A stretch of 52,030 nucleotides of DNA, from positions 1 through 52,030 of the forward strand of contig JAPUKU010000198.1 of the NCBI GenBank assembly GCA_027295505.1. Reading direction: 5' to 3'. Position 1 is the stretch's first letter. Each line of letters begins with the position of its first letter. Source of the stretch: Acidobacteriota bacterium. Lineage in GTDB: Bacteria > Acidobacteriota > Polarisedimenticolia > JAPUKU01. The position numbers and the translations under genes were made by a program. Below are positions 26,539 to 49,371 of this stretch, piece after piece. The notes below the pieces were generated by a model. It ran no database searches and was not told the origin of the DNA. It worked only from the letters and a program-made list of their open reading frames with translations.

Positions 26539-26757
26539 GTGACCTTCCTCCCCGTTCGGGAACCTGGTTCTACGGCGCACTACCCGGACGCCGGCGTGCG
26601 CCACCCCGCTCCGATGGTCGAGCCTCAGCTTCAGCCTGCCGGAGCCACGATAAGAATTGATTGCCCTGGTGCGGCTAGCGCGACATCATACCCGAAATAG
26701 CTCCGGGGAGGGGATGAGCCCCCCCTCAGGGGAGGAGGCGCCGGGACGGGGTCTCTC

Positions 26758-27099
26758 TCAGCTCCGCGGGGGCAGGACTCCGAGTTGCTCGATGTGTAGC
26801 CCGGGGTGAACGCGCGGAAGACCCACCCGGAACCCGATGAACGGCAACAACGGGTTCGGCAGCCAGTAAAGCAATCCCAGGCTGCGCACCCGCCCTCCGT
26901 CTCCGAGGTTCAGGCCCAGCCACACCTAGAAAAATTTGTAGGGACAGAATCCGGGGATATGGTTCACCCTGAAGCCGTCCGTGAGAAGATACTTGCGGCG
27001 CACGTACAGGGATCCCTCGAATGGGGTAATCCCCCATTCGAGCGGTCCTCCCGCGATGGGAGTGCCGCTGGAGCGGTGAACGACACGGTTGCGCTTCAT
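26758..27099 (-). pseudogene. Small gene of unknown family interrupted by an in-frame TAG
   Basis: On this strand a frame starts at ATG 27099, runs 57 codons to a TAG at 26926-26928 and continues in the same frame for 55 more codons to TGA at 26758. The first part ends NHIPGFCPYKFF; the second begins VWLGLNLGDGGRV and goes on with LYWLPNPLLPFIGFRVGLP. Both halves have normal protein-like composition, with repeated aromatic and glycine residues of similar style, so this looks like one protein of about 113 residues broken by a nonsense change. I do not recognise the family; CPYK is faintly like DUF427 but the rest does not fit. TAG could have arisen from Tyr, Gln, Glu, Trp or Lys codons. A decayed gene, a sequencing error or stop-codon suppression are all possible. 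Confidence 0.5.
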
Positions 27100-27178
27100 G
27101 ATTCGAACACCCTGCACCACCCCACTAGACCCGGGCCGGCTGACGCACAGCTTAAGGTAGAATTCAGCACTCTCAGCC

Positions 27179-28564
27179 ATGCATGCACACCCTGACGTGG
27201 TCATCCTAGGTGCCGGCTTCGCCGGGCTGGCCTGTGCCACGGCACTCGCAGGAGCAGGTGCGCGTGTCACCGTGCTCGAGGCGAGCGGGACACCCGGAGG
27301 AAGAGGTGGCTCCTTCCGCGAGCCGCGCACGGGCGAGATCCTCGATCTGGGCCCTCACCTCCTGGTGGGGGCCAACCGGGACGCGCGGGCGCTCCTCGAG
27401 CGGCTTGGCACGCTCGAACGTCTGGAGTTCCAGCGCTCTTTGAATATCGAATACCGCTGGCGCGGCGATCGGCGGAGCCGCCTCTCGTGCCCCCCTCTGC
27501 CCGCACCCTTTCATCTCGCCGCCGGGCTTCTGCGATTCCAGGCCCTGCCTCTATCGGAGCGAGCGGCCGCCGTGCGGATAGGCCGCGCCGTCCGTCGCAT
27601 CGAAAAAACGCCCGGCCGCTTCACGGCGTCACCCAGCCCGCAGAACGGCCAGTGCCCGACCCCCGAGGAGACCGTGACACAGTGGCTCAAACGCCTGCGC
27701 CAGGGGGAGCATGCACGCCACCTGCTCTGGGAGCCGCTGGCGACCGCGGCACTGAACGATCACCCGGGGCGTGCCTCGGCGTTTCTGTTCGCACGCGTGC
27801 TCGCCGAGGTTTTCTCGGGAGGGCCCCGGGACAGCGCCCTGGGCTGGCCGCGCGGTGCCCTGGGAGATTTACTGAAGCCTGCGGACCGCTGGCTCGAGCA
27901 GCGCGGCGGCTCGCTCTTGTACTCGAGCCCCGCGGCCGGACTCGTGTGGAAAGGCTCCCACGTGCAGGAGGTGCGCCTGCGGGGCGGTGGCTCGGTGCGT
28001 TCCGACCAGGTCGTGAGCGCCCTGCCAGCACGTGCCCTGCTTCCCCTGCTCGCAGACGCGCCAGCCTCTGTAGGGCAGCTACGGGACGACTGCCGCCTAT
28101 TTGCGCCCCGCACCCTGCCGATCCTGTCGGTTTACTTCTGGAGTGAGCGGCGGCTGCTCGGAACCCCCTTCTGTGCGCTTCCAGAAGAGGAGTTCCCCTG
28201 GATATTCGAACGCCGGGCTCTCGCTGAGGGTAGCCGCGGGAGCTGGATCCTGGCTCTCACCCTGGGCGGTGCGCAGGCCTGGATGAATCGCCCCGAGGCG
28301 GCGATCCTGGAAGCGTCCAGGCGTCAGATGGAGGGACTCTTCCCGGGCTCGGAGCGGGACCTGTGGCATGCCCGGGTCGTCCGGCAGCCGGAAGCGACCT
28401 TCGAACCCGCCCCCGACCTCTGCCTGCGGCGTCCCGGCCCCGGAACACCGGCTGACAACCTCTGGCTGGCCGGGGACTGGACCAACACCGGTCTGCCTTC
28501 GACGCTGGAGGGGGCGGCCCGCAGCGGGCACATTGCGGCGCGCGCGCTTGAATCACGCGCCTGA
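27179..28564 (+). CDS. hpnE: Hydroxysqualene dehydroxylase HpnE (FAD-dependent)
   Basis: 461-residue flavoprotein of the phytoene-desaturase-like amine oxidase family; in the HpnCDE route it reduces hydroxysqualene to squalene. The FAD-binding motif is VILGAGFAGLACATALAG at the N-terminus followed by VTVLEASGTPGGRGGSF. Internal features are LDLGPHLLVG near residue 57, LLWEPLATAALN near residue 185, and the C-terminal flavin motif LWLAGDWTNTGLPSTLEGA near residue 430. The usual length is about 430-460. The ATG at 27179 has no Shine-Dalgarno sequence; a TAGAAT hexamer at 27158-27163 may be its -10. It is separated from hpnD by sodC and the interrupted small gene. Confidence 0.9.
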   Translation: MHAHPDVVILGAGFAGLACATALAGAGARVTVLEASGTPGGRGGSFREPRTGEILDLGPHLLVGANRDARALLERLGTLERLEFQRSLNIEYRWRGDRRSRLSCPPLPAPFHLAAGLLRFQALPLSERAAAVRIGRAVRRIEKTPGRFTASPSPQNGQCPTPEETVTQWLKRLRQGEHARHLLWEPLATAALNDHPGRASAFLFARVLAEVFSGGPRDSALGWPRGALGDLLKPADRWLEQRGGSLLYSSPAAGLVWKGSHVQEVRLRGGGSVRSDQVVSALPARALLPLLADAPASVGQLRDDCRLFAPRTLPILSVYFWSERRLLGTPFCALPEEEFPWIFERRALAEGSRGSWILALTLGGAQAWMNRPEAAILEASRRQMEGLFPGSERDLWHARVVRQPEATFEPAPDLCLRRPGPGTPADNLWLAGDWTNTGLPSTLEGAARSGHIAARALESRA

Positions 28565-46446: not shown

Positions 46447-47153
46447 TTGCGGCTCTGCACCGAGCGCGTGTTCAGGAACAGGAAGAACCCGATCAGCGAC
46501 ACGTAGTAGATGATATCGCGCGAGTCGATGACTCCACGCTGGATGCTCTCGAAGTGGGTCTTGGGGCTCAGGGTGGCGAAAAACCCATCGAGAACATCGG
46601 GAATGACAACCAGGAAGATCGGCATCCCCACGATGTACAGGAACAGGCTGGTGAAAAAGGCCAGCAGCAGCGCCACAATCTGGTTCTCGGTGATGCTCGA
46701 GAAGAACACTCCGATGGCAAGAAAAGTGGCCGCCAGAAACAGGCTGCCGAGGTATCCGCCCAGGATCGGCCCCCAGTCTGGATCACCGGAGACGGCGACC
46801 GTGATGGCCACCGGGAACGACAGCCCCAGCGTGAGGCCGATGAACCCGAGGGCTGCCAGAAATTTTCCGGCCACGACCTCGCCATCGGTCAGCGGAAAAG
46901 TCATCAACAGCTCGATGGTCCCCAGCTTCTTCTCCTCCGCCCACAATCGCATGGACACCGCGGGAACGAAGATCATCAGCAGCCACGGCATCCACTGGAA
47001 GTAGCCCCGCATCGAGGCCTCTCCCACGAGAAAGAAGGTGCTCATGAACAACCACCCCGAGACCGCGAGAAAAAGAGTTATGAAGATGTAACCGATCACG
47101 GACGAAAAGTAGGAGCGGAACTCCTTGCGGGCGATCGCCAGGACGTTACGCAT
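46437..47153 (-). CDS. ABC transporter permease, GldF-like
   Basis: 238-residue inner-membrane permease of the ABC-2 type with six hydrophobic segments. The first region MRNVLAIARKEFRSYFSSVIGYIF is typical of the family, as is SMRLWAEEKKLGTIELLMTFPLTDGEVVAGKFLAA near residues 66-100, with the conserved E-x-x-x-GT-E-x-L pattern. Partner of the ATPase encoded just upstream; the two genes overlap by eight bases. Substrate unknown. The C-terminal helix pair ends with FFLFLNTRSVQSRKWR. Confidence 0.88.
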   Translation of the reverse strand: MRNVLAIARKEFRSYFSSVIGYIFITLFLAVSGWLFMSTFFLVGEASMRGYFQWMPWLLMIFVPAVSMRLWAEEKKLGTIELLMTFPLTDGEVVAGKFLAALGFIGLTLGLSFPVAITVAVSGDPDWGPILGGYLGSLFLAATFLAIGVFFSSITENQIVALLLAFFTSLFLYIVGMPIFLVVIPDVLDGFFATLSPKTHFESIQRGVIDSRDIIYYVSLIGFFLFLNTRSVQSRKWR

Positions 47154-48093
47154 GCTTTTCCACCTCCTCGGCCGTCAGCTCCCGGAAAACGTCCTCCAGG
47201 CTCGCGTCCTCGCGGCGCAGCTCCGCGAGAACCAGCCTCTGGTCCACGGCCCAGCGGAACAACACCTCGCCGATATCATCCCTCCCTGCGGTGACCTCGA
47301 AGCGGTGCATTCCGGGGCTCTCTTCCGCCCGGTGGTTCACCCGCGAAACCTCGGGCAGAACGTCCAGAGAAGACTCCACCCTGGCCCGCTCACCCCGCAC
47401 CCGGATCGTGTAGGTTCCTCCTCCTGCGGAGCGCTGCCGCAAGCGCTCGGGTGTATCGCTGGCCACCACCTGGCCGTCCCGGATGATGATGACCCTGTCG
47501 CATGTCATCTCCACCTCGGGCAGGATGTGCGTGCTGAGGATGACCGTCTTCTCGCGCCCGATCTCCCGGATCAGGTTGCGAATCTCCCGGATCTGGTTCG
47601 GATCGAGACCGCTCGTGGGCTCATCGAGGACCAGGACATCGGGATTGTGGATGAGGGTCTGGGCCAGTCCCACGCGCTGGCGATATCCCTTGGATAGCTC
47701 TCCAATGTCCTTGCTGACCACCTTCTCGAGCCCGCAGCGCTCCACCATCTCCCGGATCCGCTGGGTGCGCAGAGCTTTCTGGATACCGCGAATCTCAGCC
47801 ACGTACGACAGATACTCCACGACCCCCATGTCGTCGTACAGCGGCGCGCTTTCGGGCAGGTAGCCAATGCGGCGGCGCACCTCCAAGGACTGGGAGGTCG
47901 TGTCGAACCCGGCCACGGTGGCGGATCCGGAATCCGCAGGCATGTAGCAGGTGATGATGCGCATGGTGGTAGTCTTTCCGGCCCCGTTGGGACCGAGAAA
48001 CCCCACCACCTCGCCGCGGGCGATCTCAAACGACACATCACGCACGGCCCGGGTTGGGCCGAACGATTTGGATAAATTTCTGACCGAGATCAT
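47146..48093 (-). CDS. ABC transporter ATP-binding protein, GldA-like
   Basis: 315-residue ATPase that drives the Gld-like system. Walker A is GPNGAGKTTTMR near residue 35, the signature is LSKGYRQRVGLAQ near residue 133, Walker B is VLVLDEPTSGLDP near residue 152 and the switch histidine is in ILSTHILPEV near residue 190. A C-terminal extension after residue 220 is usual for ABC-2 exporters of this type. It heads the operon ATPase, permease, GldG-like, DUF4340. A strong promoter ends 11 bases before the ATG and there is no Shine-Dalgarno sequence. Confidence 0.92.
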   Translation of the reverse strand: MISVRNLSKSFGPTRAVRDVSFEIARGEVVGFLGPNGAGKTTTMRIITCYMPADSGSATVAGFDTTSQSLEVRRRIGYLPESAPLYDDMGVVEYLSYVAEIRGIQKALRTQRIREMVERCGLEKVVSKDIGELSKGYRQRVGLAQTLIHNPDVLVLDEPTSGLDPNQIREIRNLIREIGREKTVILSTHILPEVEMTCDRVIIIRDGQVVASDTPERLRQRSAGGGTYTIRVRGERARVESSLDVLPEVSRVNHRAEESPGMHRFEVTAGRDDIGEVLFRWAVDQRLVLAELRREDASLEDVFRELTAEEVEKHA

Positions 48094-48104
48094 GCGAGCG
48101 AATT

Positions 48105-48133
48105 ATCCTAATCACGCTCTGGGGCACTGTCAA
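48105..48133 (-). promoter_or_regulatory. Promoter of the Gld-like operon, near-leaderless
   Basis: Perfect TTGACA, a 17-base spacer and TAGGAT, ending 11 bases before the ATG. The leader would be about four or five bases. Confidence 0.75.
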
Positions 48134-48318: not shown

Positions 48319-48331
48319 GCACTCCAAGTGC
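48319..48331. promoter_or_regulatory. Inverted repeat upstream of the sigma-54 promoter, possible activator site
   Basis: GCACT-CCA-AGTGC lies about 73-85 bases upstream of the predicted sigma-54 start site, the distance at which enhancer-binding proteins often attach. It is flanked by TTTT on both sides. Five-base arms are short, so chance is possible. Confidence 0.35.
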
Positions 48332-48377
48332 TTTTATCACTGATGCTTGCAACATGTCGGATTTCTGGCGATCCAGC

Positions 48378-48392
48378 TGGCACGGAGGTTGC
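48378..48392 (+). promoter_or_regulatory. Sigma-54 (-24/-12) promoter
   Basis: TGGCAC, five bases, then TTGC: an exact match to the sigma-54 core with GG and GC 12 bases apart. The predicted start is near 48404. It points towards the structured leader and the pseudo-receiver/PilZ gene. Transcription from it would require an AAA+ activator, none of which is encoded in the window. Confidence 0.7.
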
Positions 48393-48400
48393 GAAAGGAT

Positions 48401-48573
48401 GAGGTGCGCACCTCTCCCCCAGCGGGGAGAGATCGCTGCCCCCGCTACCCCGACGGGCGCGGCAGCGACAACCACGCCGCCTCACGTTTGAGGCTGTGCC
48501 GCAACTCCGGCCACCCGATCCCTCGGGATCGGCAGGTGGCCGGGGTCTGGCGGCGCATCGAGGGTTGGCGCCG
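48401..48573 (+). ncRNA. Structured leader RNA candidate upstream of the PilZ gene
   Basis: Between the sigma-54 start and the PilZ ribosome binding site, stems follow one another closely. Stem A: 48412-48419 with 48424-48431, eight pairs, loop CAGC. Stem B: 48433-48440 with 48461-48468, eight pairs, plus inner CCCG (48441-48444) with CGGG (48454-48457). Stem C: 48479-48484 with 48489-48494, six pairs, loop CGTT. Stem D: 48507-48515 with 48535-48543, nine pairs, continued by 48516-48521 with 48526-48531 and a CTCG loop. Stem E: 48551-48556 with 48568-48573. A 14-base palindrome at 48401-48414 overlaps A and the start site. No T-tract follows any stem. It does not match the c-di-GMP riboswitch pattern I know. 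It may be a 5' UTR element or a separate small RNA. Confidence 0.45.
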
Positions 48574-48594
48574 GGACGAGTTTAGGACAGAAAC

Positions 48595-49371
48595 ATGGCG
48601 CGCAAAAGTGACAAGCAAGCAGGGACCCGGAGCCAGGAGCGTGGGTCTGCCACATCGCGAGCCGCCCCCTGCGTCGATGGCAGGACGTCCATCCTCGTTG
48701 TTGAAGAGCAGGAGGCGGCGCGTGCCGCCGAAATCTCCTGCTTCGAGCGCATCGGCTGCATCGTGCACTCTGCCGGTGACCTGCAGGAGGCCTTACAGGA
48801 GGCGCGCACCGCCACACTCGATATCGCGCTGGTGAGCGAGGCCTGCCTCGGGGAGGATTCGGGCCAGGCGTGCGAATCGATCCGAGAGGCCTGCGGGCGA
48901 TCCGATCTTCCGGTCGTGCTCATCAGCGACGAGGACGCACCCGAGTCGATTGACCTGAGCCGGGCTCGCGGCTGTTGCGACTATGTGCCGCGGAGCGTTT
49001 CCCAGATGGAACTAGTGCGGCGGGTGGCCAACATCCTGCAGATTCCGCCGCGGCGTTTTCTGCGCACCATGGTGGCGCAGGCCGACACCGATCTTCGCTC
49101 GAAGGTGGAGTATCTCGGGCACTCGCGGGACATCAGCCGTACCGGCATCATGATCGAGACCGACCGGCCGATGGCCATCGATCAGGTGGTGAAGATCAAG
49201 TTCCTGCTACCTCATAGCAACTCGCTCATCAACGCCACCGCAGAGGTCATCCGCGTGCTGCGGAATCCCCTCAGCGGCCAGTACGAGGTCGGCTGCCGGT
49301 TCACCGAGATCACCCCGGCCGCGGAAAAGACGATCACCGATTACCTGCACCACGACACCCGCCGCAGCTGA
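48595..49371 (+). CDS. Degenerate receiver domain fused to a PilZ domain
   Basis: 258-residue cytoplasmic protein. Residues about 30-145 have a CheY-like fold pattern (SILVVEEQEAARAAE, LPVVLISDED, GCCDYVPRSVSQMELVRRV), but the phosphoacceptor site reads IALVSEACLG with no Asp and the conserved Lys is Arg, so it is probably not phosphorylated. Residues about 155-250 form a PilZ domain with both c-di-GMP binding elements, RRFLR and DISRTG, near residues 154 and 179. It would therefore respond to c-di-GMP rather than phosphate. AGGACAG precedes the ATG. Expression appears to come from the sigma-54 promoter about 200 bases upstream, through a structured leader. Confidence 0.82.
   Translation: MARKSDKQAGTRSQERGSATSRAAPCVDGRTSILVVEEQEAARAAEISCFERIGCIVHSAGDLQEALQEARTATLDIALVSEACLGEDSGQACESIREACGRSDLPVVLISDEDAPESIDLSRARGCCDYVPRSVSQMELVRRVANILQIPPRRFLRTMVAQADTDLRSKVEYLGHSRDISRTGIMIETDRPMAIDQVVKIKFLLPHSNSLINATAEVIRVLRNPLSGQYEVGCRFTEITPAAEKTITDYLHHDTRRS

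Follow-up and report, generated by a model that had tools for sequence, protein, structure and literature searches.

The c-di-GMP-I and c-di-GMP-II riboswitches (RF01051 and RF01786) are structured leaders that precede c-di-GMP-related genes, and the leaders controlled by CsrA/RsmA are also structured and carry a GGA motif near the start codon. Additionally, GC-rich, long and structured intergenic regions upstream of genes have been collected as orphan candidate structured RNAs by the GC-IGR approach, which favours genomes that are very poor in GC (PMC6429828), and dense, near-perfect intergenic hairpins are likewise found in palindromic repeats of the REP-like and MITE types. Here, we describe a hairpin-rich leader that resembles all of these. 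It lies upstream of a gene for a receiver-PilZ protein in an Acidobacteriota bacterium, near the end of the window (i.e., the whole stretch of 52,030 nucleotides that was analysed).

There are nevertheless differences from the known systems. The leader did not match RF01051 or RF01786 at gathering or relaxed thresholds, and a search of the genome for RF01051 found none, with control genomes equally empty. More generally, no family of Rfam 15 reached its gathering threshold, and a relaxed search gave chance-level matches only; the absence of a known c-di-GMP riboswitch signature, remarked on in the preliminary description, is thus borne out by the covariance models that it had called for. In contrast to the GC-IGR candidates (PMC6429828), the host genome is GC-rich, and the leader is a single example with no alignment. 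Control by CsrA was rejected, as the CsrA gene was not found in the 95%-complete genome while control genomes were positive, and a REP or MITE repeat was rejected because the leader is present in a single copy in its genome. An intrinsic terminator or attenuator was also discarded, since no T-tract follows any of the stems between 48401 and 48594, just as the preliminary description had stated.

The putative promoter, the leader and the gene

The main features of the locus are the following:

48378-48392, + strand: sigma-54 (-24/-12) promoter-like site TGGCACGGAGGTTGC, an exact TGGCACN5TTGC
48401-48414, no strand assigned: perfect 14-bp palindrome GAGGTGCGCACCTC, an inverted repeat over the predicted start site
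48401-48594, + strand: structured 5' leader (z -4.95, intergenic ranking, GC 0.71)
48584-48587, + strand: likely Shine-Dalgarno AGGA, read directly from the sequence and outside the fold
48595-49371, + strand: gene for a receiver-PilZ protein of 258 aa (Pfam PilZ 1.6e-14; Response_reg 8e-7, just below its Pfam cut-off)

The promoter-like site shows the -24/-12 consensus with the correct spacing, and the genome encodes an RpoN DNA-binding domain. The pattern TGGCACN5TTGC has 10 copies in the genome and is not much commoner than its reversed control (7 copies); 7 of the 10 copies are intergenic, in a genome where the intergenic fraction is 0.099 (P about 8e-6). Because of this placement and of the presence of RpoN, the motif is considered credible, and the sigma-54 promoter that had been proposed before the leader is plausible. 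The base after TTGC is G at the PilZ site, and four other intergenic sites read TTGCTCT. From the usual spacing to the -12 element, transcription is predicted to start near 48404. Both the fold and a rise in GC content begin at this predicted +1, and the 14-bp palindrome that covers it is a possible operator or alternative hairpin. The GC content of the leader is 0.71, compared with 0.56 in the 307 bases upstream and an intergenic mean of 0.60, and only 2.3% of the intergenic regions of the same genome reach such a value. The GC-rich block spans from +1 to nearly the start codon.

The upstream neighbour is an ABC transporter gene (47146-48093, minus strand), divergent from the PilZ gene and separated from it by an intergenic gap of 501 bases. 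Its operon has a near-consensus sigma-70 promoter (TTGACA-17-TAGGAT) at 48105-48133 of the window, so near the start codon that the ABC mRNA would be almost leaderless. The gap also contains, on the + strand and 5' of the sigma-54 site, a terminator-like hairpin (GCACTCCAAGTGC-TTTT, 48319-48336) that no evident gene precedes.

The ATG at 48595 is a sound gene start, with an in-frame TAG at 48583-48585, the AGGA at 48584-48587 and a PilZ domain in the product. Because of this TAG, the protein cannot extend N-terminally into the leader, and a coding function of the region was also dropped because no ORF within it scores as coding. The probability that AGGA is unpaired is about 0.73-0.82 at most transcript lengths and 0.43 for a transcript ending at 48700.

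The identification of the downstream gene as PilZ holds, and its translation contains intact both motifs by which c-di-GMP-binding PilZ domains are recognised, namely RRFLR (RxxxR) and DISRTG ((D/N)xSxxG). The receiver domain, by contrast with those of the relatives L012 and L013, is degenerate: in the alignment, both relatives keep the phosphoacceptor Asp, the paired acidic residues and the conserved Lys, whereas here the Asp aligns with Ser, the acidic pair reads EE and the Lys is missing. The genome encodes 14 GGDEF domains, which indicates that c-di-GMP signalling is present.

Predicted structure of the leader

The minimum-energy fold of the leader comprises six helices, all on the + strand:

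48403-48572: P1, outer closing helix that pairs 48403-07 to 48568-72, weakly supported (probability 0.9 for the leader by itself)
48412-48431: P2, hairpin CTCTCCCC-CAGC-GGGGAGAG, 8 perfect pairs, probabilities 0.98-1.0
48433-48468: P3, hairpin TCGCTGCC...GGCAGCGA, 8 outer pairs plus inner pairs, outer probabilities 0.82-0.98
48469-48567: P4, helix (48469-73 with 48563-67), probability 0.95 in the leader alone, weakly supported
48479-48494: P5, hairpin GCCTCA-CGTT-TGAGGC, 6 pairs, probability 1.0 for 5 of the 6
48495-48557: P6, long hairpin of 8 + 12 + 6 pairs with a 3-nt bulge (GCA), probabilities mostly 0.9-1.0

The hairpins P2, P3, P5 and P6 are robustly predicted, with most pairs above 0.9 (weaker are the inner pairs of P3 and, in P5, the pair that closes the loop). 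They account for four of the five consecutive stems that had been described between 48412 and 48573. The fifth, placed near 48551-48573, is absent from the minimum-energy fold, where its bases pair instead in the base of P6, in P4 and in P1.

The two closing helices are less constant. P4, which encloses P5 and P6, depends on transcript length, and P1 is lost in several longer transcripts. In some longer transcripts, the segment 48563-48575, containing the 3' strands of both helices, is predicted to pair alternatively with the early coding region, and the two arrangements are 4-7 kcal/mol apart at some lengths. This length-dependent switch may be a folding artefact. P6 contains two wobble positions, 48497-48555 and 48506-48544. 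The + strand forms G-U pairs there and the - strand would have A-C mismatches, which hints slightly at selection on the plus-strand RNA.

Folding compared with the genomic background

The leader folds with -110.1 kcal/mol, while its dinucleotide shuffles average -87.7 (sd 4.5), which gives a z of -4.95. None of the 200 shuffles folded as well, an outcome that leaves standing the proposal of a structured leader, for which folding no better than shuffled sequence had been set beforehand as the refutation. As the high GC content was the main caveat, the leader was also compared with its own genome, and composition does not explain the folding. For instance, a second shuffler, applied to the 89 long upstream regions of a 390-kb sample, placed it first (z -3.8), and its 5 perfect stems per 194 nt are the maximum over the same 390 kb. 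Against a background of 616 kb in stretches from this genome, the leader shares the first two places among intergenic regions with a region between two converging genes. The best 180-nt window of the leader has a z of about -7 (single z values are rough in this ranking, as only 30 shuffles were used per window). Such folding beyond composition is what is expected of cis-regulatory RNA leaders in general.

Other folded regions were recorded in these scans. In the window, a structured intergenic stretch at 26539-27178, 5' of the gene at 27179, has its best 180-nt window at 26899 (z -4.3, + strand). Further top-ranked intergenic regions of the same genome are found in the stretches L100 (10056-10260) and L102 (12372-12610), the latter of which includes a long hairpin with a T-tract behind it, probably a terminator.

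Search for relatives

No relative of the leader was recovered by a DNA search of 100 relatives, by two scans of GTDB contigs that used the PilZ protein and the ABC neighbour protein, by a protein search of the class, or by a single-sequence covariance model run on 41 and on 396 genomes; a plasmid collection gave only one marginal match of 50 bases. The nearest genomes in these searches belong to the same class and none to the same family or order, and the phylum-wide covariance search was insensitive, owing to its stricter filters and to the few candidates scored per genome. The best relatives of the PilZ protein are 25-34% identical and have other gene neighbourhoods. Those checked, all plus-strand homologues, show, as judged by eye, sigma-70-like promoters and a short leader in place of a structured one.

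A second copy in the same genome was also considered. The 243-nt gap between two genes that we read as thiS and thiG (L092 19510-19752, contig C88) folds strongly on both strands (z -4.0 to -4.75), has no Rfam match and, like the PilZ leader, ends in GGACAGAAAC just before an ATG, in this case that of thiG; the three other genomic copies of GGACAGAAAC have no ATG after them. The candidate was dropped because it does not resemble the leader significantly: shuffles did as well in 58 of 500 cases in one orientation and in 24 of 500 in the other, and the score is equalled by 5.7% of random genomic segments.

Alternative explanations

Among the rival explanations, the one that survives best, although we consider it unlikely, is that the element works at the level of DNA, as a cluster of palindromes bound by regulators or as what is left of a decayed mobile or repeat element rich in hairpins, without any function as RNA. 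Near-perfect stems that fold on both strands and a perfect palindrome at the predicted +1 are what such an element would show. Against this reading count the single copy in the genome, the lack of a match in 100 relatives and the merely marginal one in the plasmid collection, the reach of the GC-rich block from +1 almost up to the start codon, and the two imperfect positions in P6, which are G-U on the + strand only.

It is considerably less probable that the sigma-54 promoter drives a separate small RNA of about 170 nt that ends ahead of the PilZ gene by processing or termination. The fold is compact between +1 and about 48572, as would suit such a product, but no terminator follows it, a sigma-70 scan shows no other promoter from which the PilZ gene could be transcribed, and Rfam holds no match.

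We give slightly less credit still to a neutral GC-rich spacer, whose folding would be the extreme of what intergenic DNA in a GC-rich genome produces by chance. After correction of the raw energy for GC, the + strand gets no higher than the top 0.2% of 19,334 windows (390 kb of the same genome), where coding windows are equally extreme, and a few other intergenic regions in the 616 kb also reach z values below -4.5. Against this stand the shuffling result, the position of the leader in the top two of the intergenic ranking and a stem count above that of any other 194-nt window in the 390 kb.

Finally, an antisense or divergent RNA from the minus strand is very improbable, even though this strand is the best of the 19,334 windows in GC-corrected energy and has a z of -4.69, as the scan found no sigma-70-like promoter or terminator for it and the P6 wobbles fit the + strand.

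Possible role of the leader

The explanation that we favour, and to which we give close to an even chance, is that the sigma-54 promoter drives transcription of the leader and that the leader serves as a structured 5' untranslated region with a cis effect on the receiver-PilZ mRNA. It draws on the excess folding, on the joint start of the fold and of the GC rise at the predicted +1, on the placement of the sigma-54 motif together with RpoN, on a Shine-Dalgarno sequence that is mostly unpaired, on the G-U wobbles of P6 on the + strand, on the absence from the region of any ORF that scores as coding and on the alternative pairing of P1 and P4. Several observations count against it: the leader has no relative among the genomes searched and, hence, covariation lends it no support; the minus strand folds equally well or better; the best protein relatives among those checked have sigma-70-like promoters and short leaders; and the length-dependent P1/P4 switch may be artefactual. 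Most likely, we are dealing with a lineage-specific 5' untranslated region that affects how well the PilZ mRNA is translated or how stable it is. The preliminary description had suggested a cis-acting element or a small RNA controlling the gene; the folding, the promoter, the gene and the absence of a terminator agree with it, and we infer the rest, that is, transcription, the exact start site, the strand, a function as RNA and the regulatory step at which the gene would be controlled. The leader is, in this sense, a candidate regulatory RNA.

In the proposed mechanism, the sigma-54 promoter would direct the transcription of the leader together with the receiver-PilZ mRNA. Lined up one after another and perhaps closed off by the weak P1 and P4, the stable hairpins would protect the mRNA at its 5' end, with the ribosome-binding site left just outside the fold. 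Regulation would act on the stability of the mRNA or on the accessibility of its start site. P1 and P4 would compete with the pairing of 48563-48575 to the first codons. A bolder version, which we regard as improbable, is that the leader represents a new class of regulatory RNA restricted to an undersampled bacterial lineage, gating a pseudo-receiver PilZ effector under sigma-54 by exchanging P1 and P4 for a hairpin at the coding start.

If the RNA is functional, transcriptional control by sigma-54 and post-transcriptional control would be joined on a single c-di-GMP effector. In addition, the PilZ leader offers a clean test case for the use of single-genome folding statistics as pointers to regulatory RNAs in GC-rich genomes.
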